This document shows positions 1 through 20,319 of a stretch of DNA of 64,000 bases, piece by piece. The translations under genes were made by a program, and so were the position numbers. Numbering within the stretch: the first letter of the stretch is position 1; every line of letters begins with the position of its first letter. The notes beneath the pieces were generated by a model. The model was not told the DNA's origin. It saw nothing but the letters and a program-made list of their open reading frames with translations, and made no database searches. The stretch is from Desulfitobacterium dehalogenans ATCC 51507 (lineage in GTDB: Bacteria > Bacillota > Desulfitobacteriia > Desulfitobacteriales > Desulfitobacteriaceae), in NCBI RefSeq assembly GCF_000243155.2, contig NC_018017.1, positions 868,001 through 932,000 on the forward strand, read 5' to 3'.

Positions 1-1
1 T

Positions 2-898
2 TCATTATTACTACCAGAATGGCAAACTGCAAATATTACAAATGTACTTATGTATATCCTATTAATAATATTTGCTATATATTTGATGTTAAGATTTTGC
101 AGTATTTTTGCTACTATTCTTCTTATATATAGTTCGACCCTTGTAGGAATTATATCGCTGTTATATATAATTGTAGCTGTAGCATTTGTTTTAAATTACA
201 TAATAAACATGGGCAGTGTCTCTACATTACCTCCATTGGGGGAGGAAAGTCTAATACTCTTGGCAATATATATACCTCAATATTATCCATTTATATGGAT
301 GAGTGTCGTTGTATCCTTGTTAATTCAAATCACAATAATACTAATAAGACCAGCTTATACACTTTCCAAAACAAAAAGCTCTTTTAAGGTTCTTAGTGTT
401 GCTTTTTCAATAGCAACAATTACCCTTTTTCTATTTACTGAGGAGATTCGGAATTACTTCATCCATTTTATACAAACTTTTAAAATTGAACCTGAAGATT
501 TATCAGAATTAACTAAAGTGTTAGGAAATCTTGATTCGGCAATTACAGATAATTTCATTCAGCGTATGATTACAGTTGTATTCTTACCTTATACCATTGG
601 TTCGTACATCTGCTTATATATTATTGAGCTAATCGAAAATCAGCATAAAGAAAAGGCTTGTAAATATTATTATGCTGCACTTTACTATCATTCAAAGAAA
701 TTTGAAGAGAAAACATATAGTAACCTTCGTAAGTGCTTATATTTTGGTGGAGATAACTACGAGATAATAATTTTAAACACCCTCGAACTAAAACCATACT
801 TGGAGAAACTTGGATATTTCAAGAAAATAGAAAATTCTGTTAGTAAAGAAAACAGATTTAAGAAATTGCTTGACTTGATTAAAAGTATAGCGCAATAG
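2..898 (+). CDS. Membrane protein of unknown function (5' end outside window)
   Basis: The frame is open back to the first base of the window, so the ATG at 50 is probably internal and the start lies upstream. The N-terminal half has about four hydrophobic stretches (near residues 1-50, 65-95 and 115-140 from the ATG) and another near residues 170-195. The C-terminal ~90 residues are soluble, charged and rich in Tyr and Lys. I do not recognise the family. It is the cargo of the first, partly visible cassette, whose right end is the site at 952. Confidence 0.6.
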   Translation, partial: SLLLPEWQTANITNVLMYILLIIFAIYLMLRFCSIFATILLIYSSTLVGIISLLYIIVAVAFVLNYIINMGSVSTLPPLGEESLILLAIYIPQYYPFIWMSVVVSLLIQITIILIRPAYTLSKTKSSFKVLSVAFSIATITLFLFTEEIRNYFIHFIQTFKIEPEDLSELTKVLGNLDSAITDNFIQRMITVVFLPYTIGSYICLYIIELIENQHKEKACKYYYAALYYHSKKFEEKTYSNLRKCLYFGGDNYEIIILNTLELKPYLEKLGYFKKIENSVSKENRFKKLLDLIKSIAQ

Positions 899-951
899 AT
901 TAATGTGTAACGTCATCAATTTGGCTTTGGCTTCGAGTAGCGTGGGACTTC

Positions 952-1026
952 GTAGAACAAGGTGTTCCCGTAACTTAGTCTATATGTATGTATTTTGACG
1001 CTACGGGAACACCCAGGACGTTATAT
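952..1026 (+). repeat. attC-like site 1
   Basis: Left box GTAGAAC, right box GTTATAT. The perfect stem GGTGTTCCCGTA/TACGGGAACACC surrounds a loop with the TATGTATG and TTTGACGC motifs. It ends the cassette that begins left of the window. The left box GTAGAAC predicts that this cassette starts with GTTCTAC. Confidence 0.85.
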
Positions 1027-1110
1027 GCCATTTCCTGCAAGACCGCCCGCCGTCCATGGCGGAATTTAGACGAGAACTTAATTTCGTACTTGTAGAAAAT
1101 GTGCAGTAGA
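1027..1110 (+). repeat. Cassette leader element (type I)
   Basis: Conserved ~85-bp block directly after the right box. It begins with cassette-end sequence (CATTTCCTGC), then a GC hairpin CCGCC-GTCCAT-GGCGG at 1047-1062, then a spacer ending in TTCGTACTTGTAG. The same block recurs at 14611, 20217, 23463 and 34824 in front of unrelated genes. Function unknown; part of an extended recombination site, or a promoter/leader travelling with the cassettes, are both possible. Confidence 0.6.
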
Positions 1111-1140
1111 ATAGTTTTGTTTTTTTAAGGTTGTGAAAAG

Positions 1141-1563
1141 ATGAAAAAAATAATCAAGCAGTATATTCTTCCAGTGGTTTTAAGCATGGTATTCGTTTCT
1201 ATTGGTTTCTTTTGGTTGCATGGTGTTCCATTAATTGGGCAGCCCAAAAAGGAAGATGTTTCTTACATTGAGATAGCTGACACTAATTTGACTGATGATA
1301 TACGGACATTTACTGAATACGAAGATATCGAAAAGACTGTAAATATGCTAAATTTTTTGAATTATCAATTAGGGACGCCTGAACAAGAAGCTCCGTTTAT
1401 AACTATTACATATCACTTAAAAAACGGTGAAAAGGTGGATATTTTTGCGAATAAAGATACTGTATATTGGGGAGGCAAAGGCTATACCATTAAAGACGAT
1501 AACGGAACTATTTTTGTAAATATAATCGAAGGTATGTTTTTCTCTGATTTATTAGTTGACTAA
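1141..1563 (+). CDS. Small membrane-anchored extracytoplasmic protein, unknown
   Basis: 140 residues. One N-terminal membrane segment (about 8-30) is followed by an external domain. The C-terminal pattern (YTIKDDNG...IIEGM) resembles the end of the protein at 24602 (YKIKDSEK...VISLVE), so the two may belong to one family. The ribosome site is weak (AAGGTTGTGAAAAG before ATG). Single-gene cassette between sites 1 and 2. Confidence 0.6.
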   Translation: MKKIIKQYILPVVLSMVFVSIGFFWLHGVPLIGQPKKEDVSYIEIADTNLTDDIRTFTEYEDIEKTVNMLNFLNYQLGTPEQEAPFITITYHLKNGEKVDIFANKDTVYWGGKGYTIKDDNGTIFVNIIEGMFFSDLLVD

Positions 1564-1708
1564 AGTAAAAGCAATAAAATCAGATTTGAAGTAGGATTAC
1601 GAACATAATTTGCATTTTAGTTATGACTTCTTCTTATAATGTGCGACAGCTTGAACACCTAGGGGCGCGCCTTCCATGGCGCTCTGGCTTCGCGGGGCAG
1701 GAAACGTC

Positions 1709-1783
1709 ATATAACAGAGGAGTCCCGCAACTAGAGGATGATGAATGTAGTATGACGCTGCGGGACTCCTCGAGACGTTAAAT
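1709..1783 (+). repeat. attC-like site 2 (archetype)
   Basis: Left box ATATAAC + A; 13-bp perfect stem GAGGAGTCCCGCA/TGCGGGACTCCTC; loop beginning CTAGAGGATGATGAATG; then GAGACG and right box GTTAAAT. By analogy with integrons, cleavage would fall between G1777 and T1778. The upstream end GCAGGAAACGTCATATAAC pairs with the start of its own cassette at 1020. Confidence 0.88.
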
Positions 1784-1815
1784 GAAAGTCCTAGCAACTA
1801 ATAGGAGGTTTTTCG

Positions 1816-2433
1816 ATGCATAAATCGTTATCAAATATCTTTGGAGGGTTTTTACTATCTGAAGATATTACTTCTGATGCATTAGGCCTTCTTAATCATC
1901 ATGGGCGACAAGACGTAGCTAAACATGTTTTAACAGTTGCTATTACAGCCCAGCATCTAGCCAAAATTTATAATGTTGATTTGGAACTCGCATATTGTGC
2001 AGGACTACTACATGATATTAGTTTGATTTTGCCAACGTCTCAAATGCTACAAACCTCTATTGAATTGGGTATAGAACCGGTTACTGCTGAGAAAGTGGTA
2101 CCATATTTGATTCATGGTAAATTGTCAGCAGCAATTGCAGAAAATGTTTTTAAAGTAAAAAATGACGGTCTCCTTCATGCTATTAGTTGCCATACAACAC
2201 TATGTGCTAATGCAACTACACTTGATAAAGTATTATTCCTTGCAGATAAAATGTCTTGGGATCAAGAACACTCTCCGTTTAGGACTGAACTTGAGAAGGC
2301 ACTTGAAAAATCTCTTGACGAGGCAGTCAGTTGCTTCTTAACTTGGAATTGGAACCAGAAGGATAAATTGGACTCTATACATCCATGGCTAATTGATGCT
2401 TGGAATAACTATGAAATAGGAGATTATGCATGA
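1816..2433 (+). CDS. HD-domain phosphohydrolase, YqeK-like
   Basis: 205 residues with the HD-superfamily order HGRQDVAKHV, CAGLLHDIS (metal-binding HD), LIHGKLSA and KVLFLADKMS, as in YqeK-type symmetrical Ap4A hydrolases. The family link is established for these motifs; substrate here is inferred. Good ribosome site (ATAGGAGG) eight bases before ATG. A second HD protein is carried in the cassette at 27255. Not in an operon; one gene per cassette. Confidence 0.75.
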   Translation: MHKSLSNIFGGFLLSEDITSDALGLLNHHGRQDVAKHVLTVAITAQHLAKIYNVDLELAYCAGLLHDISLILPTSQMLQTSIELGIEPVTAEKVVPYLIHGKLSAAIAENVFKVKNDGLLHAISCHTTLCANATTLDKVLFLADKMSWDQEHSPFRTELEKALEKSLDEAVSCFLTWNWNQKDKLDSIHPWLIDAWNNYEIGDYA

Positions 2434-2449
2434 CGTAAGACGGACCTTC

Positions 2450-2525
2450 ATCTAACACAGAATTCCCCGCAACTAGCGGATGATGCATGTGGTTAGGACG
2501 CTGCGGGAATTCCTGAACGTTAGAC
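2450..2525 (+). repeat. attC-like site 3
   Basis: Left box ATCTAAC, right box GTTAGAC (perfect match to the integron consensus GTTRRRY). Stem AGAATTCCCCGCA/TGCGGGAATTCCT with a one-base irregularity. Loop CTAGCGGATGATGCATGTGG. Confidence 0.85.
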
Positions 2526-2560
2526 GACATATTCGCTTTGGGGTTATATGCTAGGTAGGA

Positions 2561-3403
2561 GTGAAGAAAGTGTTAAGTGATCTTGTTTTTTCTATAAGCA
2601 AACGACTCGATGCTAACTTTGAAGCAAGTTTGTTTCAAGCATCTATTACAGGTTTAACCGACTACGCAAATCCCTTACGTTATAATAACTTTGCATATAG
2701 CTTTCGTGAATTAACTAGGCATATCTTTACTAGGTTAGCTCCAGATGAAAATGTTTTGCTTTGCAAATGGTATAAAAATGAAACAGATAAGCCAAAAGGA
2801 ATTTCGCGTAAGCAAAGGGTATTTTATGCAATTAAAGGCGGACTCGATGATGACTTTATTGTGACAGAATTAAATTTTGATTTGGGTAGAATTTGGAGAA
2901 CTATGAAAAGTGTAGTTGAGAACCTAAATAGGTATACTCACATCGAAGAGCAAACTTATAATATAGATTCTCAAGTTGGTGATAACTTTGTATTAAACTC
3001 ACTTAATGCTCTGAATATATTCTTGGATTCTATAGATGGTCTTCGAGAAGAAATAATTTCGGCTTATGAGATGCGTTTATGGAAAGTTATTAATCTGGCT
3101 TTAATATCTGATGTAATACAAGAATTAGATGTGTTAGCTACGCATTATTGGATTGAAGGAAGTTCGATAGAGAATATATCTATTGAATCAATCGATAATG
3201 AATATATCCATGTTACAATTTGTGGAAGCGTAGATATTGAGCATCAATACGGTTCAGATGGGGATTATAGACGTGGAGACGGTTTAAGAATGGAGGATTC
3301 GTATCCATTTAATATTTCGCTAAAAATAGATGTAGAAACCCCTCTCGAATTTGATATTAGTGCTGAAGATATTGAAGTCGATAATTCACAATTCTATGTT
3401 TAG
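2561..3403 (+). CDS. Hypothetical protein, 280 residues
   Basis: GTG start at 2561 with TAGGTAGGA just upstream. A helical N-terminal ~200 residues is followed by a beta-rich, acidic C-terminus (residues 200-280). The overall look (N-terminal helical regulator-like part, C-terminal polar beta domain) recalls nucleases associated with prokaryotic Argonaute-like systems, but I cannot support that from motifs. Cargo of the cassette 2519-3496, whose ends GTTAGACGAC and GTCGTCTAAC pair over ten bases. Confidence 0.55.
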   Translation: MKKVLSDLVFSISKRLDANFEASLFQASITGLTDYANPLRYNNFAYSFRELTRHIFTRLAPDENVLLCKWYKNETDKPKGISRKQRVFYAIKGGLDDDFIVTELNFDLGRIWRTMKSVVENLNRYTHIEEQTYNIDSQVGDNFVLNSLNALNIFLDSIDGLREEIISAYEMRLWKVINLALISDVIQELDVLATHYWIEGSSIENISIESIDNEYIHVTICGSVDIEHQYGSDGDYRRGDGLRMEDSYPFNISLKIDVETPLEFDISAEDIEVDNSQFYV

Positions 3404-3428
3404 TTGTGCTAAAGAGTGCGAATACGTC

Positions 3429-3503
3429 GTCTAACACTGGATTCCCGACACTAGAGGATGATGCAAGTGGTTCGGACGCGTCGGGAATCCCAGAACGTTA
3501 TAC
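3429..3503 (+). repeat. attC-like site 4
   Basis: Left box GTCTAAC, right box GTTATAC; stem GATTCCCGAC/GTCGGGAATC. Its right half is the start of the first HNH cassette copy. Confidence 0.85.
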
Positions 3504-3561
3504 GAAAACCTGACTCAGTTTTAATTGTGATATATTTGTGGTTTTTTTGAGGAGGATGTAG

Positions 3562-4266
3562 ATGTCATTTACAGAGAAAGTGAAATTAGAAGCAAAGAGA
3601 AAATCGGCTTTTAGATGTGTAGTATGTAGGGAGCCATTTGTAGAAATACACCATATTATTCCACAAGAGGAAGGTGGCCCAGATACATTAGATAATGCTG
3701 CACCTTTGTGTTCCTCGTGTCATGACTTATATGGAGGCAATCCATATAAAAGAAAACAAATAAAGCAAATGAGAGATTATTGGTTTGAACTGGTTGAAAA
3801 TACTATTATGACTAATGATGGAGCATTACTAGAGATTGAAAAAGATCCATATTTTCTAAACAGTCTTAAGAATAAAGGTATAGCACTTTATCATGTGGTA
3901 TTTGAAAATGAAAGTTTCGAAGAGTCGGCTCAAATGATCTTCGAGATTGTTAGAACTGCTCAAAAAACCCAACCCAATTTGAATAGAGCATTATATTTAG
4001 ATATTGATGGACACAGAAACGAAAATGGTGGTTATGATAATGACATGTTTGAATTGCAAAGACACTTTATTCTTGGTTATTTGTTACCATTTTTAAGTGA
4101 GATACACATACCACTGTGCTCTGCTAAAAATACAAAACTTCAAAAAAATAATATTCCTGATGAATTAAATATATTTTCATCTGATGAAGAGATGATTAAG
4201 CATCTTAAGAAAGAGGGAAAAGAGAAATCTTTTACGATATATTCCGAAGAAGAATCTGGGGTATGA
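3562..4266 (+). CDS. HNH endonuclease-domain protein (copy A)
   Basis: 234 residues. The N-terminal 70 residues carry a zinc-stabilised HNH motif: CVVC near 18, HHIIP near 29, DNAAPLCSSCH near 43-53. The remaining 160 residues show no recognised domain and probably set specificity. Strong ribosome site GAGGAGG before ATG. The protein is identical to copy B at 9808. HNH proteins of this layout occur in phage defence and as mobile-element nucleases; the role here is inferred. Confidence 0.85.
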   Translation: MSFTEKVKLEAKRKSAFRCVVCREPFVEIHHIIPQEEGGPDTLDNAAPLCSSCHDLYGGNPYKRKQIKQMRDYWFELVENTIMTNDGALLEIEKDPYFLNSLKNKGIALYHVVFENESFEESAQMIFEIVRTAQKTQPNLNRALYLDIDGHRNENGGYDNDMFELQRHFILGYLLPFLSEIHIPLCSAKNTKLQKNNIPDELNIFSSDEEMIKHLKKEGKEKSFTIYSEEESGV

Positions 4267-4277
4267 GTCAGGCCTTC

Positions 4278-4352
4278 GCATAATAGGCAGTTCCCAAAAC
4301 TTTGAATTGATGAATGTAGTATGATGCTTCGGGAACTGCCGGGACGTTATAT
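4278..4352 (+). repeat. attC-like site 5
   Basis: Left box GCATAAT (last base C to T compared with the duplicate site 12), right box GTTATAT; stem GGCAGTTCCCAAA/TTCGGGAACTGCC. The single change is the only difference I see between this site and site 12 inside the duplicated cassette. Confidence 0.85.
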
Positions 4353-4379
4353 AAAATCGCGCGCACGAACCGCCACATC

Positions 4380-5279
4380 GTGTGGCGGATTAATTATAAA
4401 GATGCGTTGAAGATTCAAATGAAAGAAAGTGATTTTTTGAATTTACAAAGTGATAAGGTTAAAGAAATATATGATTTTTGTATAACATATGATGGAGAGC
4501 CGATTTCAAGACATAATGACGTTAATCATTTTATACATAGGATTGGGCTACTGCTAGATACTGGCTATGATACAAAGGATGAGGGCATTAAGCAAATAGC
4601 AGAGAAAATATTGTCTAATCAAAGTTGTGAAGGGGCTTTTTTATCTCAAATACAAATATCAACAAACTATGGGGGAACTGGATTACCAGAATTAGGATGG
4701 ATGATATGTGATTTTCCATTGCTTCTTTACTTCCTCATAAAGATGGGATATGGGAAAGATGACCGAGTAATAAAGGCTATAAACTATTTGATTAGTGTTA
4801 GCGATGAAAATGGTTGGCGGTGCAAAAGCTCGTTTGAGAAATTTAGGGGACCTGGCAGAAAGGAAGATCATTGTCCATTAGCCACCCTATATGCTTTAAA
4901 GGTTTTCTCACTTCTACCAGAGTATCATAATGAGCAGTTTGTCAAAAATGGTATAAATGCAATGCTTTATCATTGGCGGATAAGTAATGAACGGAAAATT
5001 TATATGTTTGGAATGGGAAAGAATTTTAGAAAGTTAAAATATCCTACTCATTGGTTTGATATCGTTCACGTTGTTCGTGTTTTGGTGAATTTTGAGTATG
5101 CCAAGGGTACTCAAGAATTCAAGGAAATGATAGGTATTATCAAGAGTAAGAAAACTCAAGAGGGTGATTTTGTCCCTGAAAGTGTTTTTACTGCATACAA
5201 AGGGTGGGATTTTGGACAGAAAAAGAGTCCATCATCTTCATTATCGAATGTGATTAATGAAATTATTGATAAAGTATGA
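4380..5279 (+). CDS. Prenyltransferase/squalene-cyclase-like alpha-alpha toroid protein
   Basis: About 299 residues. Repeating helices with Gly-Trp-rich turns (ENGWRCKSS, PLATLYALKVF, WFDIVHVVRVL, EGDFVPESV) suggest the terpenoid cyclase/protein prenyltransferase alpha-alpha barrel fold. No DxDD catalytic motif is visible, so enzymatic activity is uncertain. The GTG at 4380 lies inside a hairpin (CCGCCAC/GTGGCGG), so ATG 4419 is a plausible true start. The cassette ends pair over ~18 bp (GCGCGCGACTTTACATAAC at the right end). Confidence 0.5.
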   Translation: MWRINYKDALKIQMKESDFLNLQSDKVKEIYDFCITYDGEPISRHNDVNHFIHRIGLLLDTGYDTKDEGIKQIAEKILSNQSCEGAFLSQIQISTNYGGTGLPELGWMICDFPLLLYFLIKMGYGKDDRVIKAINYLISVSDENGWRCKSSFEKFRGPGRKEDHCPLATLYALKVFSLLPEYHNEQFVKNGINAMLYHWRISNERKIYMFGMGKNFRKLKYPTHWFDIVHVVRVLVNFEYAKGTQEFKEMIGIIKSKKTQEGDFVPESVFTAYKGWDFGQKKSPSSSLSNVINEIIDKV

Positions 5280-5340
5280 TTTTGGGTGGTTTAAGGGGCC
5301 GACGTCCTGTCGGCCTCTGAGTTTGGGGGCGCGCGACTTT

Positions 5341-5416
5341 ACATAACAGAGAATTGCCGAAACTTTGCAAAGATGCATGTGGTTGGGACGCTTCGGCAAT
5401 TCTCAAGACGTTATGT
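5341..5416 (+). repeat. attC-like site 6
   Basis: Left box ACATAAC, right box GTTATGT; perfect 13-bp stem GAGAATTGCCGAA/TTCGGCAATTCTC, shared with site 16. Confidence 0.87.
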
Positions 5417-5454
5417 GCAATATTGGCAGTATGGATTAAAACGAGGTGATATAA

Positions 5455-6057
5455 ATGGCTTTACTTGTTGGAAACGATGTTCTAAGTAATTACACATTCG
5501 AAAAGGAAGATGAGTTTGAGCAAGTAGTTGTCAAATTAAGCGACTACGTCTTTGGGCCACAAACAATCTACTTGGACATTAAGAAAGTGATGAAGAGTAA
5601 AAATGTAGCGAGTATTCCAGATGGTTATTTGATTGATATGACTAGTGCAGGAGATCCTAAGCTTTACGTTATAGAAAATGAAATAGTTAAGCATGATCCA
5701 TTCAAACATATCGGAATTCAAATGCTAAAGTTTGCTACGAGTTTCGAAGAGAGTCAAACATCGATCCGTGGATTTCTAATGAATCATATCAGTAAGGACC
5801 CAGATAAATTGAAAAGGCTCGAACAAGGATGCAAAGCATCTAATAGCCGAAACATTGATCACTACTTAGATAAGGTTGTCTACAACGAGTTCAAAGGATT
5901 GGTTCTAATAGATGAAGCACGACCAGAATTACATCGGGTTTTAGAAAAGATTAATGCCGATATATCTGTACTAGAAGTGAAGTGTTTTGTTTCTACCACG
6001 GACAATTTGCATATGAATTTGATACTTTATATTAAGACTATGAAGAACCAGAAATAA
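5455..6057 (+). CDS. PD-(D/E)XK-like nuclease, N-terminal part (probably frameshifted)
   Basis: 200 residues. IPDGYLIDMTS...LYVIENEIVKHDPFKHIGIQMLKF near residues 56-90 fits the D...E-x-E...Q core of PD-(D/E)XK-type nucleases. Good ribosome site GAGGTG. The reading frame stops at 6057, but the -1 frame continues without a stop to 6473 and encodes what looks like the missing C-terminal domain, so the gene is probably one protein broken by a frameshift near 6045-6057. Confidence 0.55.
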   Translation: MALLVGNDVLSNYTFEKEDEFEQVVVKLSDYVFGPQTIYLDIKKVMKSKNVASIPDGYLIDMTSAGDPKLYVIENEIVKHDPFKHIGIQMLKFATSFEESQTSIRGFLMNHISKDPDKLKRLEQGCKASNSRNIDHYLDKVVYNEFKGLVLIDEARPELHRVLEKINADISVLEVKCFVSTTDNLHMNLILYIKTMKNQK

Positions 6058-6473
6058 TCCTTAGTAGTAAAACAAAAAACGTTGCTAACCTTGATAGAAA
6101 TAAGAGACTTCAAAGGCGGGCCGATTCAGATACCATTGTAGTTCCGGCTAAGGAAGAAGGATTTGAGACTGAGTTCTTAAACAATTCTCAATGGTACGCT
6201 ATTCGCATAGGTGCAGCCATGAAAGATCGAATAAAGTATACTGCAGCTTATCAAGTTGTGCCCGTTAGTGCAGTGACTTATATTGCGGAGGTACATGAAA
6301 TAAAGCCATATAAAGACACCGGCAAATATATGATTCTTTTTAAGGGCAATGCGCAAAAACTTACTAACCCTATCCCAGTAAAAGATACAACTAATGCGCC
6401 TCAAGGGCCAGTGTACGTAAAAAGAGAGAGGCTTATAGTATCTGAATTTTTAGAAGACGCTCTTGAAGTATGA
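6058..6473 (+). pseudogene. C-terminal domain of the PD-(D/E)XK-like protein, out of frame
   Basis: Translation in the frame of 6219 runs from before 6060 through SDTIVVPAKEEGFE and WYAIRIGAAM, and continues YTAAYQVVPVSAVTYIAEV to the stop at 6473. I recognise this as the domain usually fused behind the nuclease core. The first ATG in frame is at 6219, but no ribosome site precedes it and the domain clearly starts earlier. Either a disrupted gene or programmed -1 shifting. Confidence 0.5.
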
Positions 6474-6488
6474 AAGCGCCAATACTGC

Positions 6489-6565
6489 ACATAACAGGGC
6501 ATTCCCAACACTTAGAGGATGATGCATGTGGTTAGGACGCGCCGGGAATACCCAAAACGTTATGT
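6489..6565 (+). repeat. attC-like site 7
   Basis: Left box ACATAAC, right box GTTATGT. The stem is imperfect (GGGCATTCCCAAC/GCCGGGAATACCC). The cassette 5410-6558 has ends GTTATGTGCAATATTGGC and GCCAATACTGCACATAAC, complementary at 17 of 18 positions. Confidence 0.86.
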
Positions 6566-6605
6566 GTAATGTGGCTTACGGAGATAATTTTTGGAGAGTG
6601 AATAG

Positions 6606-7400
6606 ATGATACGAATTAACTCTCGGGCTGAATTGAAATCTTTTCTAGAAGAAAACCATTGGTTTGAGGATGGTTATATAACTGAGCTTAATAGTGAAGT
6701 CTTATCAGATAATAAACTTTCGTCAGTCCATATTAGAATTGGCTATCAGATTGCGGGAGATTACCGAGCAGGAAATCCTCGTACGGTCAGAGAGTTCACT
6801 ATTAAAGCTTGCGGTATTAAATTGTGGACTTATGATGATAAGACTTGTTTTAATCCAGAACATTGCATGCAGGGCATTGAGCTTTTAGATGATGGTATGG
6901 GCATTCAATTCGATATTCCCGAAATTGTAACGCTTATCTGTGAAGAGTTAATTGTAAATAGGCCATTTGATATTGAGTCTATCACAAAGCCTTGGCTCAG
7001 CGAGCGGGAGTATATAGCTACCATTCCTGGAAGGGAAGTTCCGTTACCTGAGGAATGGATAAGTTGGTTACAAAAAGAAGGATTTAATGTGTCATGGCGT
7101 TTTGCTGGGAGTGAGGCAAAACTACCCGAAAAAGTTTCTTATCCTGATTATTCCGGCTGGTTCTTACAGAAAACCGATAAAGTGAAGATAACTGATTTTG
7201 GTGTTTTCTTTTTTCATGTTGAAGATAAAGAAGGTAGGCTATTTCTTCATATTGAAAATAAGGATAGTGATGTAGATCTATGGTTTGCAATAACGAAGAT
7301 TATAGCTCAGATGCCGAGAACTACAATTTTGTGCGGAAATTGTACATTTTCAGGTGAGCAATGGATAAAGTATTTAGCTGATGGTACGTATACGGTATAA
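6606..7400 (+). CDS. Hypothetical protein, 264 residues
   Basis: Start ATG preceded by TGGAGAGTG. Soluble, acidic, mixed alpha/beta, with two similar-sized halves separated by a Pro-rich linker near residues 128-145 (TIPGREVPLPEEW). No signal peptide, membrane segment or recognised motif. Single cargo of the cassette 6559-7492, whose ends pair over 17 bp (GTTATGTGTAATGTGGC at the left). Confidence 0.6.
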   Translation: MIRINSRAELKSFLEENHWFEDGYITELNSEVLSDNKLSSVHIRIGYQIAGDYRAGNPRTVREFTIKACGIKLWTYDDKTCFNPEHCMQGIELLDDGMGIQFDIPEIVTLICEELIVNRPFDIESITKPWLSEREYIATIPGREVPLPEEWISWLQKEGFNVSWRFAGSEAKLPEKVSYPDYSGWFLQKTDKVKITDFGVFFFHVEDKEGRLFLHIENKDSDVDLWFAITKIIAQMPRTTILCGNCTFSGEQWIKYLADGTYTV

Positions 7401-7421
7401 ATTTGAGGTCTGCCACACTAC

Positions 7422-7499
7422 ACATAACAGCGATTTCTCGACACTTAGAGGATGATGAATGCGGGTTGGGACGCGTCGGGAATTCACAGGACGTTATAA
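7422..7499 (+). repeat. attC-like site 8
   Basis: Left box ACATAAC, right box GTTATAA; stem partly decayed (GCGATTTCTCGAC/GTCGGGAATTCAC). Loop TTAGAGGATGATGAATGCGG. Confidence 0.82.
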
Positions 7500-7551
7500 G
7501 AAATGGTGCGCGGTTAAGAGAGCTTATTCGGAAGATGTGGAAAGGAATATT

Positions 7552-8256
7552 ATGAGTAGTACTACAAAAGAGTTAATGATTGGTGTACTGAAATCAGGTT
7601 TATCTGCTATTCCCGTTGCGGGCGGTGCGCTAAATGAAGTCCTCTTTGAGATAAGGGGTAGGATTGCACAGCAAAGGTTAAACGATTTTACTAATAGTTT
7701 TATAGATTCAATAAGAGATTTAGGGATCTATATTGATAAGGAAAAGATTACATCTGAGAACTTTAATGATATTTATTTTTCTATCGTTAAGCGTGTTGTT
7801 GAAACAAACTGCAAATATAAACTCGAAATATTCAAAAACATCCTAATCGGTAACATTCAAAGAACTTATAAGTCAGATTTTAGAGAAACATATTTAGATT
7901 TAATTATGAAGCTAGATTTTGTAGAAATTGAAATATTGGAGATGTTTAAGGATACTGGTAGATCCGGTAGCATGGATATAACTAGTGAATCTATCGCAGT
8001 AGTATCCACATTAACGAGTAAATCTTGCAAAGAGGTAATAAAAGAAAGGATTAAGGAGTGTTCACCTGATTTAACTACTTTAGAGACTGAAGGAAAATAT
8101 GAGTATTATATATGTGATCTAATTTCAAAATCACTGTTAATCGATTCAAAAACTACAGGGAATACACATAGAGATTTGGGAAAAGAAGGATTAACAGTAT
8201 TATACATAACCGACTTTGGAAAGGAATTCCTTAAATTCATTCGTGTAGGTTTTTGA
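7552..8256 (+). CDS. Hypothetical protein with hydrophobic N-terminal helix
   Basis: I chose ATG 7552 (AAAGGA six bases upstream) because the longer frame from 7459 would read through the recombination site. 234 residues. LKSGLSAIPVAGGALNEVLF near residues 12-31 is an amphipathic or membrane-seeking helix; the rest is helical, with a winged-helix-like C-terminus (ITDFGKEFLKFI). Proteins with this N-terminal pattern are seen in bacterial defence islands; function not assigned. Confidence 0.55.
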   Translation: MSSTTKELMIGVLKSGLSAIPVAGGALNEVLFEIRGRIAQQRLNDFTNSFIDSIRDLGIYIDKEKITSENFNDIYFSIVKRVVETNCKYKLEIFKNILIGNIQRTYKSDFRETYLDLIMKLDFVEIEILEMFKDTGRSGSMDITSESIAVVSTLTSKSCKEVIKERIKECSPDLTTLETEGKYEYYICDLISKSLLIDSKTTGNTHRDLGKEGLTVLYITDFGKEFLKFIRVGF

Positions 8257-8289
8257 GGATTTAGTCAATCTCTGGGGGCGCACCACTTC

Positions 8290-8364
8290 TTATAACAAGG
8301 TGTTCCCGTAACTTGGCCAATATGAATGTGGTATTGCGCTACGGGAACACCCAGAACGTTATAT
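8290..8364 (+). repeat. attC-like site 9
   Basis: Left box TTATAAC, right box GTTATAT; perfect stem GGTGTTCCCGTA/TACGGGAACACC, the same subtype as site 1. The left box covaries with its cassette start GTTATAA at 7493. Confidence 0.87.
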
Positions 8365-8447
8365 GAAACCCCGGTTTCGGAGAATTCTTTTAGGATCTTA
8401 AAATAGATAATAAATATAAAGTATGATTTGAAATGGAGGAGAATGAA

Positions 8448-8636
8448 ATGACAGCTTCAACACACTTTAGTTTTGGGCTCTTTGCATCACTTACATTTTT
8501 ATTTTACATAGCATTTTTCGGGCTGGTAATTTACTTCATGATAAGCGCAATAATATTCTTTAAGAGAAAGACAAGGAATGATGAAGCATTAATTAATAAG
8601 ATAGATGAGCTGATAAGGTTCAATAGAAAAGAGTAA
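8448..8636 (+). CDS. Small single-pass membrane protein
   Basis: ATG 8448 was chosen because GGAGGAG ends seven bases upstream; the longer frame from 8433 starts inside that ribosome site. 62 residues with one long hydrophobic segment (about 9-37) and a basic then acidic C-terminus. No family recognised. Confidence 0.55.
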   Translation: MTASTHFSFGLFASLTFLFYIAFFGLVIYFMISAIIFFKRKTRNDEALINKIDELIRFNRKE

Positions 8637-8849
8637 GGGAATTATTTTTGGGGCATTTCAAGGCTTCGTTTTGCTGTGGTTGGTCTTTAGGCATTCTGTT
8701 TGTTGGGGTAATTCTATAGGCATTTCTTATGTTGAATCGAATCTATAAGCATTCTTTTTATATAGAAATGCTACTCGGATTTATTTTGTTATTAAGGTAG
8801 TCCTTTCAACATTCAATTTTTAGAGAAATGCTTTGAAGCCCGGGGCTTC
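8637..8849 (+). other. AT-rich non-coding stretch of cassette 9
   Basis: No open reading frame I would support. It contains repeated short words GCATTTCT/AGAAATGC and TCTATA(A)GCATT, which can form small hairpins (AAGCATTCTTTTTATATAGAAATGCT near 8748-8773). It may be the remnant of a second gene or a weak terminator; nothing else seen. Confidence 0.4.
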
Positions 8850-8926
8850 ATATAACACAGAATTTCCCGCAACTTAGAGGATGATGCATGTGGTTGGGAC
8901 GCTGCAGGAATTTCTAAACGTTATCT
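8850..8926 (+). repeat. attC-like site 10
   Basis: Left box ATATAAC, right box GTTATCT; stem AGAATTTCCCGCA/TGCAGGAATTTCT. Its cassette (8358-8919) has ends GTTATATGAAACCCCGG and CCGGGGCTTCATATAAC. Confidence 0.85.
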
Positions 8927-8994
8927 GAAAGATGCCTGAGAACGCTCCATCCATGGCGCGTAAGATTGTGGTAAATCGGAGGAGTTATATAAGA

Positions 8995-9615
8995 ATGATT
9001 CGAAGACGGTTATCAATAATTTGCATTCTTATTATATCTGGGTTACTGAGTTTGACAGGGTGCACTGAACACTCAGAGTCTAAATCAAGTACCGTAAATG
9101 ACTTAGTTGATTCTTACTATAAGAGGTTTGAGCCAACGAACAGAGGAGACTTAAAGATTCTTGCTCAGAAGCCAATAGACAATAAAACGTTGGTTTTAGC
9201 AGAAAAATACTCAGGTGATGGGCATTCGTGCACTGAGCTGTTTTTAATAAATAACGATAAGAGAATTGAGAAGAGGGCAACTGGTCTTACACCAATTAGT
9301 ATGTGTTTTAGTGTAAATTTATTGGAGTATGAAAATAACACCATAGCATTTGGAAATTTTAATAATACGAAATGGGAAATGGAAACTGACACTAAGAAAC
9401 CTGTAAATATACAGAACATCTTAGTTAAGTTTAAAAACGGAGAGATAATTGAGGAGAATGTGGGCCTGGGCTATATTATTTATTCGAAAACTTTATCTGA
9501 TATTGAGATTGTTGAGCTGTATGATAAAAATGGTATATTACAGAGCGATTTGAATGATTTGCGTAAATATGGAAGCGTTTTTACAGAAGTTTCATTTGTT
9601 GATATCGTGCAATAG
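8995..9615 (+). CDS. Lipoprotein, unknown
   Basis: ATG 8995 gives a clean lipoprotein signal: MIRRR, hydrophobic core, lipobox LTGC (Cys at about residue 23). GGAGGAG lies 11 bases upstream. The earlier in-frame ATG at 8932 lies only six bases past the recombination box. The mature part (~185 residues) is polar, with no recognised domain. Probably anchored on the outer face of the membrane. Confidence 0.65.
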   Translation: MIRRRLSIICILIISGLLSLTGCTEHSESKSSTVNDLVDSYYKRFEPTNRGDLKILAQKPIDNKTLVLAEKYSGDGHSCTELFLINNDKRIEKRATGLTPISMCFSVNLLEYENNTIAFGNFNNTKWEMETDTKKPVNIQNILVKFKNGEIIEENVGLGYIIYSKTLSDIEIVELYDKNGILQSDLNDLRKYGSVFTEVSFVDIVQ

Positions 9616-9673
9616 AAAGTGTTCAAGGGGGTGCCGTCCAAGGCAACCTCTGAGTCTGGGGTCGGCATCCTTC

Positions 9674-9749
9674 AGATAACACAGAGTACCCGCAACTTAG
9701 AGGATGATGAATGTGGTTGAGACGCTGCGGGTACTCCTAAACGTTATAC
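9674..9749 (+). repeat. attC-like site 11
   Basis: Left box AGATAAC, right box GTTATAC; stem AGAGTACCCGCA/TGCGGGTACTCCT. The left box matches its cassette start GTTATCT at 8920, an unusual pair that covaries. Confidence 0.86.
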
Positions 9750-9807
9750 GAAAACCTGACTCAGTTTTAATTGTGATATATTTGTGGTTTTTTTGAGGAG
9801 GATGTAG

Positions 9808-10512
9808 ATGTCATTTACAGAGAAAGTGAAATTAGAAGCAAAGAGAAAATCGGCTTTTAGATGTGTAGTATGTAGGGAGCCATTTGTAGAAATACACCAT
9901 ATTATTCCACAAGAGGAAGGTGGCCCAGATACATTAGATAATGCTGCACCTTTGTGTTCCTCGTGTCATGACTTATATGGAGGCAATCCATATAAAAGAA
10001 AACAAATAAAGCAAATGAGAGATTATTGGTTTGAACTGGTTGAAAATACTATTATGACTAATGATGGAGCATTACTAGAGATTGAAAAAGATCCATATTT
10101 TCTAAACAGTCTTAAGAATAAAGGTATAGCACTTTATCATGTGGTATTTGAAAATGAAAGTTTCGAAGAGTCGGCTCAAATGATCTTCGAGATTGTTAGA
10201 ACTGCTCAAAAAACCCAACCCAATTTGAATAGAGCATTATATTTAGATATTGATGGACACAGAAACGAAAATGGTGGTTATGATAATGACATGTTTGAAT
10301 TGCAAAGACACTTTATTCTTGGTTATTTGTTACCATTTTTAAGTGAGATACACATACCACTGTGCTCTGCTAAAAATACAAAACTTCAAAAAAATAATAT
10401 TCCTGATGAATTAAATATATTTTCATCTGATGAAGAGATGATTAAGCATCTTAAGAAAGAGGGAAAAGAGAAATCTTTTACGATATATTCCGAAGAAGAA
10501 TCTGGGGTATGA
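9808..10512 (+). CDS. HNH endonuclease-domain protein (copy B)
   Basis: Identical in protein and, as far as I can read, in nucleotide sequence to copy A (3562-4266), including the 65-bp leader and the ribosome site. HNH motif as in copy A. The duplicated segment runs 9743-10591 versus 3497-4345. The neighbours on both sides differ, so this is a recent duplication or reinsertion of one discrete cassette. Confidence 0.85.
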   Translation: MSFTEKVKLEAKRKSAFRCVVCREPFVEIHHIIPQEEGGPDTLDNAAPLCSSCHDLYGGNPYKRKQIKQMRDYWFELVENTIMTNDGALLEIEKDPYFLNSLKNKGIALYHVVFENESFEESAQMIFEIVRTAQKTQPNLNRALYLDIDGHRNENGGYDNDMFELQRHFILGYLLPFLSEIHIPLCSAKNTKLQKNNIPDELNIFSSDEEMIKHLKKEGKEKSFTIYSEEESGV

Positions 10513-10523
10513 GTCAGGCCTTC

Positions 10524-10598
10524 GCATAACAGGCAGTTCCCAAAACTTTGAATTGATGAATGTAGTATGATGCTTCGGGAACTGCCGGGACGTTATAT
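10524..10598 (+). repeat. attC-like site 12
   Basis: Left box GCATAAC, right box GTTATAT; stem GGCAGTTCCCAAA/TTCGGGAACTGCC. Duplicate of site 5; the two sequences part company just after the shared GTTATAT. Confidence 0.87.
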
Positions 10599-11064
10599 GA
10601 AACGGCGCGGATTTATACCTAAAACATATTTTCCCAAAGATTGGTTAGACAATTCCACAAAGTTTTGGACAGACTTTTTATCTAATAAACCCAATTCAAT
10701 GGAAATCCACCTAGAGAATGTATATGAAGATGACTTTAACCTTCTTAAAGAATTAGTTGATGCAATAGGTGATCCTAAATTTTCAATTTGCTTAGATTTA
10801 GGTCATGTTAATGCAAACTCCACGAAAGAGCTTAACAATTGGATACAAGGTCTAAATGACAGGATTAGGTACGTTCACCTGCATAATAACAATGGAAAAT
10901 TTGACGATCACTTTGGCCTTTGGATGGGTGAAATCGATATGTTAAATACGTTAGAGTTGTTAAAAGTACATTCACCAAAAGCACTCTGGACAATAGAGAC
11001 CCTTTCTGTGGATATTAAACCGTCAATTGACTGGCTGGTGGATAACGGATTTATAAAGGGTTAG
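10597..11064 (+). pseudogene. Sugar-phosphate isomerase/epimerase (TIM barrel), 5'-truncated
   Basis: The protein matches only the C-terminal half of the xylose-isomerase-like/AP-endonuclease-2 TIM-barrel family: MEIHLENV, FSICLDLGHVNA, RIRYVHLHNNNGKFDDHF and WTIETLS are the metal- and substrate-binding strands. The N-terminal half of the barrel is missing, and the frame opens directly at the recombination box (ATG 10597 overlaps GTTATATG). Probably a non-functional gene fragment captured as a cassette or trimmed on its left side. Confidence 0.6.
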
Positions 11065-11097
11065 TTTGTTTAAGTATTGCTTTGGGGGCGCCGCATC

Positions 11098-11173
11098 ATA
11101 TAACGGCGTATTGCCGACACTTAGAATAGATGGATGTGGTTAGGACGCGTCGGCAATACGCGGAACGTTATAT
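11098..11173 (+). repeat. attC-like site 13
   Basis: Left box ATATAAC, right box GTTATAT; perfect stem GCGTATTGCCGAC/GTCGGCAATACGC. It opens an unusually long 3.4-kb interval that runs to site 14 without another site. Confidence 0.86.
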
Positions 11174-11299
11174 GATAGAGCGTGCTATCCTAGCGTGAGT
11201 TTTGGGTACTATATGTCAGTGGAAGGTTTTCGGTAGGATGCGTCCTATGGTACTGCAGGCAAAGAGATTCGCTTTTTTTAATATGAAAGGAGTAAAAAT

Positions 11300-11576
11300 A
11301 TGAAGGATAATGAAAAATATAACTTTTTAAGATTGGACATTACACTAAATAGAGGTGGATACGATTACGAGGACATACAAGAGCTCTTTGAGGAGCCATT
11401 TAGTACTCTTTATCCTACAAGAATTGGATTTGAGTGGCAACCGGCTGCGGTAGGGTAGCAATTTTATCGAATTAAAATTGATATTTGACTTTGCCTTGAT
11501 GGGTGTGGCAACGGTTGTTGTAGGGAAAGTAGCAAGTGACTTCGGCCAAATCGGAATCTTGAGAGAGGGATTAATA
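11300..11576 (+). pseudogene. Small protein gene with frameshift
   Basis: ATG 11300 has a good ribosome site (AAAGGAG). The first frame stops at 11458 after 52 codons, ending EWQPAAVG. A second frame continues directly with NFIELKLIFDFALMGVATVV and runs into the next gene, so one base has probably been lost near 11450. Family not recognised. Confidence 0.4.
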
Positions 11577-12032
11577 ATGGATTTAGTAAATGACTTTGAT
11601 AAAATCATCCGTGATGTATCCAGTGTATTGGGAAAGTCTATCGATAAATCCAAATATGAAATTATCGATAGAGGAATACCGCATCAACCAAGAAGTTTGC
11701 CGACCCGAATGATGGGGGTCTACACCTTTTGGTATGAAGGCGAATTTTTAAAAATAGGAAAAGCGGGACCTAGTAGTAATGCAAGGTTTTTGAGTCAGCA
11801 TTATAATCCCAAATCAGCCCAAAGCACCCTAGCTGCATCGGTTTTGTCAGATAAGAGGATGCAAGATAAAGGTATAACTGAAAATAATGTTGGTGATTGG
11901 ATAAAAAACAATTGTCGTAGGGTAGATATATTACTAGATTCGGATTTAGGAATATTCACATTGGAACTAATTGAAGCGGCACTTCATTATAAATATGAAC
12001 CCATCTATGAAGGATTTGCCACACAAAGATAA
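11577..12032 (+). CDS. GIY-YIG-like nuclease-family protein
   Basis: I place the start at ATG 11577 (GAGAGGGATTA upstream), although the frame is open from 11478. About 151 residues: GVYTFWYEGEFLKIGKAG resembles the GIY...YIG core strands, followed by ARFLSQHYNP and a conserved late Glu (TLELIEAALH). Family assignment is moderate; activity not proven. It belongs to the composite interval 11167-14536. Confidence 0.5.
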   Translation: MDLVNDFDKIIRDVSSVLGKSIDKSKYEIIDRGIPHQPRSLPTRMMGVYTFWYEGEFLKIGKAGPSSNARFLSQHYNPKSAQSTLAASVLSDKRMQDKGITENNVGDWIKNNCRRVDILLDSDLGIFTLELIEAALHYKYEPIYEGFATQR

Positions 12033-12760
12033 ATTGGAATTTGTTGTTTTGAGGTTAAGCGTATGGAAAAAATCATCATTTAGCGGCCTAGTGGTATGAA
12101 ACTGCCAACTCACCAAACATGAGCTTTGGAAGCAAGGAATTTCTTATAGCAGCGAGTTTTGATTCTCAACTTGATTTGTAATACTGCAAGCTGCCATAGG
12201 TCGGTCCAATTACTTTAATAAAATTGTGCAGAACATCATAGTCTGGCAAAAGTACTTGCATCGACTTGACTCTAACTCGCGGCAGTTCGGTTTGAACTGT
12301 ACTCCCAGTGTGCAGGGACTCAATCTCTTTTTCGTGGGACATACCCCACAGACTCATATAGTAGATCAATTCCTTCGTTGCGGGGCGTCATTATTGTTAT
12401 ATGAGAATCCACCGTAATATTGGTTTGTGTGCTACTGGCCTAATGTGTCATGTCCGGTGGAGTTGACTAAGAGATCTACAAACTCTAGCCTTTTTTCATT
12501 AATGCTCGGCAAATGAGTACGCGAAATTGATAAATCAATGGTATGATTGCGAATACATTTTTGATTCACAACTATCTGATCTAATTCATCAACATATTTG
12601 TGTAATACCACGAATGATAAGAGTTGTTAGGCTATCTAAAGCAACTTCTTGCCAGGCTTCAGGTTGTTCTCCACCGCACGGCTCATACTCCACAAATCAC
12701 GACTTAAAAATGGCTTGTGCCATCTTCTCTAAATGATGATTTACCAAAGGAGGCAAGCTG
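12033..12760. other. Degenerate interval without an intact gene
   Basis: No + strand gene or recombination site is visible. A minus-strand remnant (see 12166-12369) and scattered short frames suggest eroded, rearranged DNA inside the long composite cassette. Confidence 0.5.
12166..12369 (-). pseudogene. Possible HsdS (type I restriction specificity) remnant
   Basis: Minus-strand frame ATKELIYYMSLWG...GSTVQTELPRVRVKSMQVLLPD resembles the end of a target-recognition domain, where GST.....VR....LLLP-type strings precede the conserved helices. A preceding piece (GGFSYNNNDA) is in another frame, so at least one frameshift is present. It is the only gene-like signal against the cassette direction in the array. 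Low certainty. Confidence 0.3.
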
Positions 12761-14257
12761 ATGGGTAATTACAATTTCTACTATGACGAGTCAGAGCATA
12801 GTAGGAAGATAAACCAAAAAACAATAACAGCGGATAACTACTACGACAGTTTTATTGCTGTGGTCGTTGGCTGAAACTCCGAAAATGAGGTTGACCTGCT
12901 TAGAAGGTATGTTGCATTTGAAGAGAAGTACCAGTACAGGCAGTCAAAAGGTGAATTAAAAAGCACCACTATCAAACAAAGTCAACTGAAAAGCGGCTTT
13001 GCATCCTTGAACCATGACAATATTTGTTTGTTGGAAGATTTTTTGGCTTTGTTTGATGATAAAACCCTCATATACTACGCAGTCATAAGCAAAATAGAAT
13101 ATATCATCAGGCAACTTTTTGAAGACTATAAAAACAGCCTTTTTGTAGACATGGACGCAATGAAATACTCCATCACAAAGGCATTAGTCTTGTATCAGCC
13201 AACGGAGATAATAGAGGGCCTCTATGAGAATACTGACGAACTTGTTACTCTACTGAAAATTTTCTTTAAGGCTCAAATTGAAAAGGACAAGGCAAACGAA
13301 TCATTGAAGCAAAAGGAAATTGAGCAATTCAGCCAAATACTAATCCTTTTAGATAACGTATCTACAATTAGAACAATAGACTGGAATTACGACATTTCTT
13401 TCGTAGGTTTCAAGAAATACCTTGCCGAAAAAGCAATAGGTAACTATTCATTAACTATAGATAAAGAGGGCGAGAATGGCAACACGGCAAAAGCGGCGGA
13501 GCGGGTAGGCCTACGCACTATTGCAGAAGCAGATTCATTTAACTCCTTCGGAATCCGTATGGCAGATATGTTGGCGGGTGTGATTTCAAAATTGCTTAAA
13601 GCACTGCATAATGCCCTACAATACACTTTGCCCGAAGAACAAGTTCACAAAAAAATTCTCGATAAAAGCTGGTTTATGATTAACGAGCGGCAGCTTGCGC
13701 TTTACAAGAAAATGCACAATGTAGTGGTCGAGCTAAACAAGGCTTGCTATAAAGCGTTCGCAGGAACATACTCAGATGACTTGATTGTGCTTATTGCTTT
13801 CTTGCAATTTATGAACCATTTTGAAATGGCGGAAGCAATAAAAAGTGACATTGATATGCAAGGTGAGTATTTTAACGCTTATTCTTGCAAAAGTTTGGCT
13901 GACTACTACGAACGAATGAGAAACAAGCTGTCTATCGACCCCATAGTCGATACTTCAAATGATTACTTCCTGAATCAAAGGGGCGCAAAAGTTTATTATG
14001 ATAGCAATAAGCAACCGTTGCTTGAATTCAAAAACGGTCGGATTGTCTGTGACGTTTTGGCGGTCGGTTTTAGCAGAGAGATGATTCCATTAATAACGAT
14101 AGCGGAAGCAAGCGAAGCCAAGTGCTATAGGCTTCCAACAGAGTTAGCAGACTGGGCTATGACTTTAGTCGGATTTGCCAATATGGGAGAGAACTTGTTT
14201 CCCTCAAAAGTTATGTTTTCTCATACCAAAGACGGATGTTACGCCGATATTTTGTAA
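12761..14257 (+). pseudogene. DUF3800-like protein with in-frame TGA
   Basis: ATG 12761 has a near-perfect ribosome site (AAAGGAGG). NFYYDESEHSRK at the N-terminus is the DES motif of DUF3800 proteins (RNase H-like fold, often in defence contexts). Codon 38 is TGA (12872-12874), after which the same frame continues unbroken to 14257 (~460 residues). ADMLAGVISKLLKAL near the middle fits the family's C-terminal Asp motif. Probably a nonsense mutation (TGG to TGA); recoding is less likely. An internal ATG at 13007 could restart translation. Confidence 0.5.
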
Positions 14258-14487
14258 CGGATAAGATCCTATAGCATACACCGAAGCCAACTATGAAAAC
14301 GCGGTGATTGTGTTCACGAAAACACAAATGAAGATGAGCTCTTAAAGTCAATAAAAAAATACTATTAAAAATTTGAGACTTATCAGTCAGATAATACATC
14401 ATATAATATTTCTGACTGACTAATCCTGAGGCGTTGTGAACTTCCATTATTCTTATTTGATGTAAATAGGGCTTATCGAATTGTTAA

Positions 14488-14535
14488 AGGGGCCGCCGTC
14501 CGTGGCGTCCTCTGAATATGGGGACGTACGGCATC
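14488..14535 (+). repeat. Cassette trailer element
   Basis: AGGGGCCGCCGTCCGTGGCG hairpin followed by CTCTGAATATGGGGACGTACGGCATC, ending directly at the left box of site 14. Related trailers lie at 20094, 21991, 30211, 33107, 35894, 38595 and 39564. The end GCGTACGGCATC is the part that pairs with the cassette's own start in intact cassettes of this type. Confidence 0.6.
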
Positions 14536-14610
14536 GTATAACACGGTATTTACGTAACTTTGTCAATATGAGAGTAATATGACGCTGCGTAAATGCCGGA
14601 GACGTTATAT
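14536..14610 (+). repeat. attC-like site 14
   Basis: Left box GTATAAC, right box GTTATAT; stem CGGTATTTACGTA/TGCGTAAATGCCG. The left end does not pair with the start at 11167 beyond ten bases, so the interval 11167-14536 is a fusion of different cassettes. Confidence 0.85.
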
Positions 14611-14690
14611 GACATTTCCTGCAGGACCGCCCGCCGTCCATGGCGGGATTTAGACAAGAGCGTTATTTCATACTTCTAGGATTTTATGTT
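14611..14690 (+). repeat. Cassette leader element (type I)
   Basis: Same block as at 1027: CATTTCCTGCAGGACC, hairpin CCCGCC-GTCCAT-GGCGGG at 14630-14647, then TTATTTCATACTTCTAGGAT. It precedes the SpoU methyltransferase gene. Confidence 0.6.
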
Positions 14691-14744
14691 ACAAAAAATC
14701 AAGGTTTGATATGTTTCCACTAACCTCGAACATAAGGAGATAAA

Positions 14745-15572
14745 ATGTCAAATATCATTGAGATAAGCGATTTTTCATCGCCCAATTTGGATGTCTTTGC
14801 TCGCCTGACGGAAACGCAGCTGCGCAACCGGTTGGAGCCGGAGATGGGCATCTTTATTGCTGAGAGTACCAAGGTAATTGGACTTGCCCTCGACGCTGGT
14901 TGCGAGCCTATTTCACTTTTGATGGAGCGCAAATACATTAAAGGGCAGGCACACGATATAATCACCCGCTGCGGAGATATCCCCGTCTATACTGCCGATA
15001 GCAACCTGCTAGCAGGGCTGACTGGCTTTCAGCTGACCCGCGGTGTGTTGTGTGCCATGCGGCGTCCTCATCTACCCAGCGTTGAGGAGGCGTGTGCCGG
15101 TGCAAGTCGAGTGGCTGTGCTTGAAGGTATTGCGGACTCTACCAACGTCGGTGCCATTTTTCGCTCGGCTGCGGCACTAAGCATCGATACCGTGCTGCTT
15201 ACCCCCTCATGCTGTGACCCAATGTGTCGGCGTGCGGTGAGAGTGAGCATGGGAACTATCTTCCAAGTGCCATGGACCCGTATTGGCAGCGAGCCCTCAC
15301 AGTGGCCGCAGCCTGGCATGGAAAGTCTGCGCAAGCTGGGCTTTAAGACCGTTGCCATGGCTTTAAGTGATACCGCTGTCAACATAGACGATCCGCAGCT
15401 CATCGCTCAGGAAAAGCTTGCTATCATACTGGGTACAGAAGGTAATGGACTGGCACCCAACACGGTTGCCCACTGTGATTACACCGCACGTATCCCCATG
15501 TCCCATAACGTGGACTCGCTGAATGTTGCTGCAGCAAGCGCAGTGGCTTTCTGGCAACTCAGAGCCCGGTAA
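14745..15572 (+). CDS. SpoU/TrmH-family RNA 2'-O-methyltransferase (copy 1)
   Basis: 275 residues. C-terminal SPOUT domain with the three family motifs: NVGAIFRSAAA (about 137), IILGTEGNGL (about 227) and IPMSHNVDSLNVAAASAVAF (about 250). The N-terminal ~100 residues are the usual substrate-binding extension. SAM-dependent methylation of tRNA or rRNA ribose is established for the family; the target is unknown. Ribosome site AAGGAG. The gene is clearly GC-richer than the cassettes around it, suggesting capture from another genome. A diverged copy is at 23701. Confidence 0.85.
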   Translation: MSNIIEISDFSSPNLDVFARLTETQLRNRLEPEMGIFIAESTKVIGLALDAGCEPISLLMERKYIKGQAHDIITRCGDIPVYTADSNLLAGLTGFQLTRGVLCAMRRPHLPSVEEACAGASRVAVLEGIADSTNVGAIFRSAAALSIDTVLLTPSCCDPMCRRAVRVSMGTIFQVPWTRIGSEPSQWPQPGMESLRKLGFKTVAMALSDTAVNIDDPQLIAQEKLAIILGTEGNGLAPNTVAHCDYTARIPMSHNVDSLNVAAASAVAFWQLRAR

Positions 15573-15686
15573 ACTTTTATATTCTTATAGTGCATCGTAA
15601 AATTCCTAAACTGTGAACTAGTTGATTAGGAGTTGTCTGGGGGCGCGCCCTCCATGGCACTCTGGCTTCGCGGGGCAGGAAACGTC

Positions 15687-15762
15687 ATATAACAGAGGAG
15701 CCCCGCAACTAGAGGATGATGCATGTGGCTAGGACGCTGCGGAACTCCTCGAAACGTTAAAT
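15687..15762 (+). repeat. attC-like site 15
   Basis: Left box ATATAAC, right box GTTAAAT; stem GAGGAGCCCCGCA/TGCGGAACTCCTC. The right end GCAGGAAACGTCATATAAC pairs with its cassette start GTTATATGACATTTCCTGC. Confidence 0.87.
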
Positions 15763-15882
15763 GAAATTGGTCGCAAAGCCGTGCCGTCATGGCGCGGGTT
15801 GTGTAGGTAGGTTTGAAGGAATTTACGATTTAAAGTTCCAGTTAGTTATATAATATGGACGGTTTTAGAATGAGGATTTCGA

Positions 15883-17352: not shown

Positions 17353-17408
17353 GCGGGATTTGAGGAGTCGCCCTCCATGGCGACTTCGAGTATGGGGCGA
17401 CCAACTTC

Positions 17409-17484
17409 ATTTAACAGAGAATTGCCGAAACTTCGCAAAGATGAATGTTGTTCGGAAGCTTCGGCAATTCTCAGGACGTTATAT
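17409..17484 (+). repeat. attC-like site 16
   Basis: Left box ATTTAAC, right box GTTATAT; perfect stem GAGAATTGCCGAA/TTCGGCAATTCTC. ATTTAAC covaries with its cassette start GTTAAAT at 15756. Confidence 0.88.
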
Positions 17485-17496
17485 GCAACCCTAGTC

Positions 17497-17646: not shown

Positions 17647-17753
17647 GTACTATACGATTTTGGTTATGCTGGGGAAGTCATGCAAGCTTCGATTAGCCCG
17701 GGGAAGTATGCATGCTTCATGTTTCGATTGTTATGGTATTTCCGACGGGCAGC

Positions 17754-20290: not shown

Positions 20291-20319
20291 ACTAAATAAT
20301 GAATGGGGGTACCCTTTTA

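Follow-up and report, generated by a model that had tools for sequence, protein, structure and literature searches.

Two copies of an HNH nuclease cassette in an integron-like array of Desulfitobacterium dehalogenans whose head recombinase lacks the I2 region

The closest described systems are the sedentary chromosomal integrons of the Vibrio type (superintegrons), in which single-gene cassettes stand head to tail, are joined at G|TT in attC sites that form hairpins through their R''/L''/L'/R' boxes, are in part duplicated within the array, and are preceded by an attI site next to the integrase gene. The I2 region of their integrase, IntI, is held to be the innovation that enabled a Xer-like enzyme to recombine folded single-stranded attC sites; since deletion of I2 kills IntI1, proof of causality is lacking, and intermediate forms are not known (PMC7790495). 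On the DNA side, all known substrates have in common that the L stem of attC carries two or three extrahelical bases (PMC2727003). The joint origin of I2 and these bases has been called a chicken-and-egg paradox, and their coevolution has been proposed (PMC4792948). Among the Firmicutes, one complete integron has been reported with IntegronFinder 2.0 (PMC9024848). The array described here shares the listed features of the Vibrio-type superintegrons but differs from them in its Gram-positive family of hosts, in an integrase that lacks I2, carries an extra N-terminal domain, and is oriented towards the array, with attI located past the stop codon, and in attC sites that mostly do without extrahelical bases in the L stem and have a one-sided (5:1) central spacer. 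We consider it likely, with a probability of roughly four in five, that the two HNH segments reported below represent one and the same mobile cassette, present twice in an integron-type array of a Gram-positive host, with the I2-less recombinase at its head as the enzyme; the latter role is inferred, without a recombination assay.

The window, i.e., the whole stretch of 64,000 nucleotides that was analyzed, covers positions 868,001 to 932,000 of the single-contig, 4,321,753-bp genome of D. dehalogenans ATCC 51507. An attC covariance model built from 26 sites and searched against this genome found 62 to 63 attC sites, and three arrays were recognized: the main one at 853,647 to 909,611, a second at 2.68 to 2.69 Mb, and a third at 3.37 Mb. 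The main array (Table 1), whose recombinase and attI lie 15 to 16 kb left of the window, is a row of single-gene cassettes that all point the same way and are each terminated by an attC site, which satisfies the corresponding integron criterion. It is located between gltBD (G000 C1:840-853 kb) and asparagine synthase/glutamine synthetase genes (window positions 56461 to 59969); an array in genome G002 also follows gltBD, which suggests a chromosomal site common to different species.

Table 1. Features of the main cassette array, in window coordinates
Feature	Position	Strand	Remarks
In-window part of main cassette array	1..41611	+	>50 attC in whole array, all on + strand
HNH cassette copy 1	3498..4346	+	849 bp, cut at G|TT
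HNH cassette copy 2	9744..10592	+	849 bp, cut at G|TT
HNH protein copy 1	3562..4266	+	234 aa, N-terminal HNH nuclease domain PF01844
HNH protein copy 2	9808..10512	+	Same length; ORF without any difference from copy 1
attC of HNH copy 1	4274..4354	+	74.1 bits; R'' box AAC to AAT at 4284
attC of HNH copy 2	10520..10600	+	85.9 bits; R'' box intact
attC of cassette preceding HNH copy 1	3425..3505	+	81.0 bits; provides left G|TT joint
attC of cassette preceding HNH copy 2	9670..9751	+	80.7 bits; provides left G|TT joint
Duplicated cassette	20211..21164	+	Second copy at genome 853,721-854,673, 99.4%, end to end
Duplicated cassette	22118..22839	+	Second copy at genome 855,714-856,437, 93.6%, end to end
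Duplicated cassette	26348..27150	+	Second copy at genome 863,139-863,941, 99.75%, end to end

A first-pass annotation, made from the sequence alone, had proposed that an HNH cassette is present twice in this array, with a single base difference and with similarity ending at the G|TT joint on both sides, and alignment bore this out. At an offset of 6246, positions 3494 to 4352 and 9740 to 10598 are identical save for 4284 T versus 10530 C, so that the units cut at G|TT agree in 848 of 849 bp (99.88%); the unit had been recognized correctly, and only its numbering (3497 to 4345 and 9743 to 10591) was one base low. Beyond the joints, the exact run is limited to AACG (4 nt) to the left and TTATAT (6 nt) to the right, neither being more than conserved attC core, and the neighbors of the two copies do differ, with only 47% (left, where a second attC is located) and 38% (right) of the flanking 100 bp matching. 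Identity extending into the flanking cassettes, the observation that would have refuted a discrete unit, was looked for by alignment and is absent. With one mismatch in 849 bp, chance cannot be the source of the pair. A search for the same cassette in four genomes of the genus, which had been suggested as a further check, returned only the two known copies and, otherwise, matches confined to attC. Each cassette holds one gene, followed by the attC site at its end; the encoded protein weakly resembles the HNH domains of McrA and IscB in sequence, and its AlphaFold model reaches a mean pLDDT of 60. The sole base difference sits in the R'' box of the copy 1 attC site (CATAAC to CATAAT) and is the only such change among the aligned sites. 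By inference, it probably impairs further excision of copy 1.

In a comparison of cassettes whose limits had been set at G|TT, four pairs aligned end to end, with identities of 99.88% (the HNH pair), 99.75%, 99.4%, and 93.6%. These pairs could, in principle, be the products of segmental duplication, homologous recombination, or gene conversion, with breakpoints falling in attC by chance, and the fact that three of the four pairs keep their relative order along the array could hint at duplication of a block. However, all four pairs end, on both sides, within the 3 to 6 nt of attC core to which the exact match past the joint is limited, their neighbors differ, the cassettes lying between pairs are unrelated, and divergence is unequal (0.1%, 0.25%, 0.6%, and 6.4%). 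Block duplication was rejected on the breakpoints and the unequal divergence, and, together with the complementarity data below, ordinary segmental duplication is excluded as the main cause of the cassette copies; we regard an origin of this kind as scarcely credible. Two further cassettes (14605 to 15756 and 23457 to 25147) share 925 bp at 92.5% but, unlike the four true duplicates, not end to end.

Movement of the cassettes as circles has left a record of its own. The first bases of a cassette make up the R' box of its own attC site only in the circular state. In a second test, independent of the first, exact complementarity of the R'' box to the start of its own cassette was seen in 32 of 40 cases and to the start of the next cassette in only 4 of 40, which points to circular cassettes cut at G|TT; of the 6 variable positions, 5.75 are complementary to the own start, where 4.04 were expected, and the observed sum was not reached in any of 20,000 permutations. 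The HNH cassettes fit this pattern with one mismatch in common. Judged from sequence alone, the array satisfies the criterion that crossover takes place at G|TT and that cassettes move in circular form, and the four end-to-end duplicates together with the own-start/R'' complementarity make a discrete unit moved by G|TT recombination, as the first-pass annotation had it, the best reading. On the proposed mechanism, a cassette would be excised as a circle by a cut at G|TT within the R' box of its attC and reenter the array; the second HNH copy may derive from a sister chromosome, by excision, or from acquisition of the cassette a second time. One attC site in the array (29204 to 29285), with an R' box reading ACGATATG and thus no GTT, is probably a dead recombination site.

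The attC sites satisfy the criterion of a hairpin formed through R''/R' and L''/L' complementarity, with 10 of 18 pairs showing double (compensatory) changes. Further details of the hairpin rest on thermodynamic prediction, in which the bottom strand folds more stably than the top strand in 35 of the 46 sites, a one-sided central spacer (5 nt versus 1 nt) is seen in 27 of 46, and only 7 of 46 carry a single-base bulge in the L stem, counted over its first 14 bp. Class 1 attC controls folded in the same way did present bulges and two-sided spacers. In most of the 46 predicted folds, then, the criterion of two or three extrahelical bases in the L stem is not met. I2 and, by predicted fold, most of the extrahelical bases are thus absent together here. 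That folded single-stranded attC serves as the substrate is an inference.

Directly left of the main array, outside the window, a tyrosine recombinase is encoded at genome positions 851,704 to 852,806. It comprises an N-terminal PF13495 domain and a catalytic PF00589 domain, as does IntI (VchIntIA/IntI4, PDB 2A3V; IntI1), with which it also shares the HSLRHSFATHLL and YTHV motifs, and it has an extra, WNP-type N-terminal domain. Its best match in the PDB, and its closest solved sequence, is 2A3V, the integron integrase from Vibrio, 42 residues of whose I2 region fall in a gap of the alignment; likewise, the I2 region is empty in the alignment with IntI1, while RHRY-type catalytic motifs are retained. 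Unlike IntI, therefore, the head recombinase misses 41 to 42 residues of the I2 region, and the criterion of an integron-specific additional (I2) domain in the integrase is not met. In D. dehalogenans, the gene is broken by a frameshift that splits it from its N-terminal domain, so that the movements either predate the break or occurred in trans. Homologs of the same clade, whole or fragmentary, head arrays in 12 other genomes from several genera; intact frames of 392 to 400 aa are present in three genomes (G004, G039, and G040), and many other head recombinases are damaged. The broken integrase gene, here and at several other array heads, speaks against our main reading.

Between the stop codon of the recombinase and the first cassette, we found a conserved attI-like site that ends in ...CGG(G/T)AAAAAGACG^TT and whose palindromic modules are spaced at constant intervals. 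The R'' box of the first cassette is complementary to the sequence after the attI joint at 9 of 9 positions in genomes G000, G297, G223, and G248 and at 8 of 9 in G004, G015, and G041, and a copy of the site lies at or near the head of all three D. dehalogenans arrays as well as of arrays in G001 and G002. The integron criterion of an attI site beside the integrase, receiving the first cassette, is therefore met. Moreover, within 5 kb of the head recombinase (13 loci), 37 attC sites are situated downstream and none upstream. The enzyme is inferred to be this tyrosine recombinase encoded just upstream of attI.

On sequence grounds, the array would thus behave like an integron, yet it fails the defining integrase test. 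No integron integrase above the curated IntI cutoff was found in the D. dehalogenans genome; every match skips the I2 positions, and a canonical IntI was rejected as none covers them. Tools that define a CALIN (cluster of attC sites lacking an integron integrase) by attC sites without IntI would score the arrays as such. This raises the possibility that they are ordinary CALINs, with cassettes moved by a canonical IntI that has since been lost or acts from elsewhere and with the I2-less head recombinase as a mere passenger: CALINs are known from some Firmicutes (PMC9024848), and a foreign IntI can recombine canonical attC sites (PMC9668308). However, attC sites of the D. dehalogenans type are present in 39 of the 46 genomes of the family, and canonical IntI, at the curated cutoff, in 0 of 46; in a sample of 398 genomes from the phylum, the attC type occurs in 25, canonical IntI in 2, and both together in 0. 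In addition, several genera have attI behind the head recombinase and a correct junction between it and the first cassette, and the strictly downstream placement of attC is at odds with a passenger. We therefore hold this explanation to be unlikely; with a dedicated candidate recombinase and attI at the head of the arrays, "lacking an integrase" probably does not fit.

In our tree, IntI formed a clade (100/100), and the head recombinases formed one of their own (98/92; 93/93 with IntI1 added), which joined the IS91-associated recombinases, not IntI. An exclusive clade of IntI and head recombinases without the IS91 types was disfavored (AU p 0.012), so that the data do not support a mere loss of I2 by a member of the IntI clade. 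Within the limits of the IntI sampling (one proteobacterial class plus IntI1 only), the absence of I2 looks original rather than a late loss. Since they group with IS91-associated recombinases, not with IntI, the head recombinases could be bystanders. Another possibility is that IS91-type elements with accessory tyrosine recombinases move the cassettes. The head recombinases are indeed like these accessory enzymes and XerA-like NF040815 in having no I2, in being their neighbors in the tree, and in matching the same NCBIfam model; the presence of closely related IS91-type recombinases inside some arrays likewise counts against our main reading. IS91-like elements with an overlapping tyrosine recombinase were located in or near arrays at L036:11802-13332 (G002), L056:8321-10343 (G017), and L068:6755-8796; in G017, the head recombinase is closely followed by a complete element that has a recombinase of its own. 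However, the IS91-associated recombinases in or near arrays overlap or abut TnpA and are without the N-terminal domain, whereas the head clade has the WNP-type domain and attI, and no IS91 TnpA belonging to a head recombinase was found beside any of them. Given also their separate clade and the absence of IS91 genes flanking the HNH copies, we consider movement by IS91-type elements very unlikely. A recombinase near the array of G002, initially read as an ortholog, was rejected as belonging to an IS91-like element.

Beyond the main reading of the HNH segments as copies of one integron-type cassette, we lean, by a narrow margin, toward the view that Bacillota have a second kind of integron, with an integrase that never had I2 and attC sites mostly devoid of extrahelical bases, either of independent origin or a survivor from before I2 (the missing intermediate). 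If this is true, cassette arrays would be a common feature of a Gram-positive family for which the usual tools would list integrase-less clusters at best, and the pairing of an I2-less recombinase with mostly extrahelical-base-free attC sites would make the question of the joint origin of I2 and the extrahelical bases directly testable; such arrays could reveal how integrons function, or came into being, in the absence of I2. In a literature search limited to open-access papers, we found no description of a cassette system with an I2-less recombinase.

As for the cargo, relatives of the HNH protein were detected in Clostridium and Lachnospiraceae MAGs (L012 and L013), without attC sites of the D. 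dehalogenans type, and none were found in viral contigs. In the Clostridium MAG (L012:6001-7323), a tandem pair of HNH-family copies is present, and the HNH motif of the second is degenerate. In a gammaproteobacterial MAG, an HNH relative directly adjoins a genuine IntI gene, at the place expected of a first cassette, which suggests that nucleases of this family are carried by integrons of distantly related phyla. Finally, a neighboring cassette in the window (2561 to 3403) encodes a predicted pPIWI-associating nuclease (PF18165/PF18166) with a strong match to the PADLOC Aga_Nuclease model, suggesting that part of a defense gene travels as a cassette.
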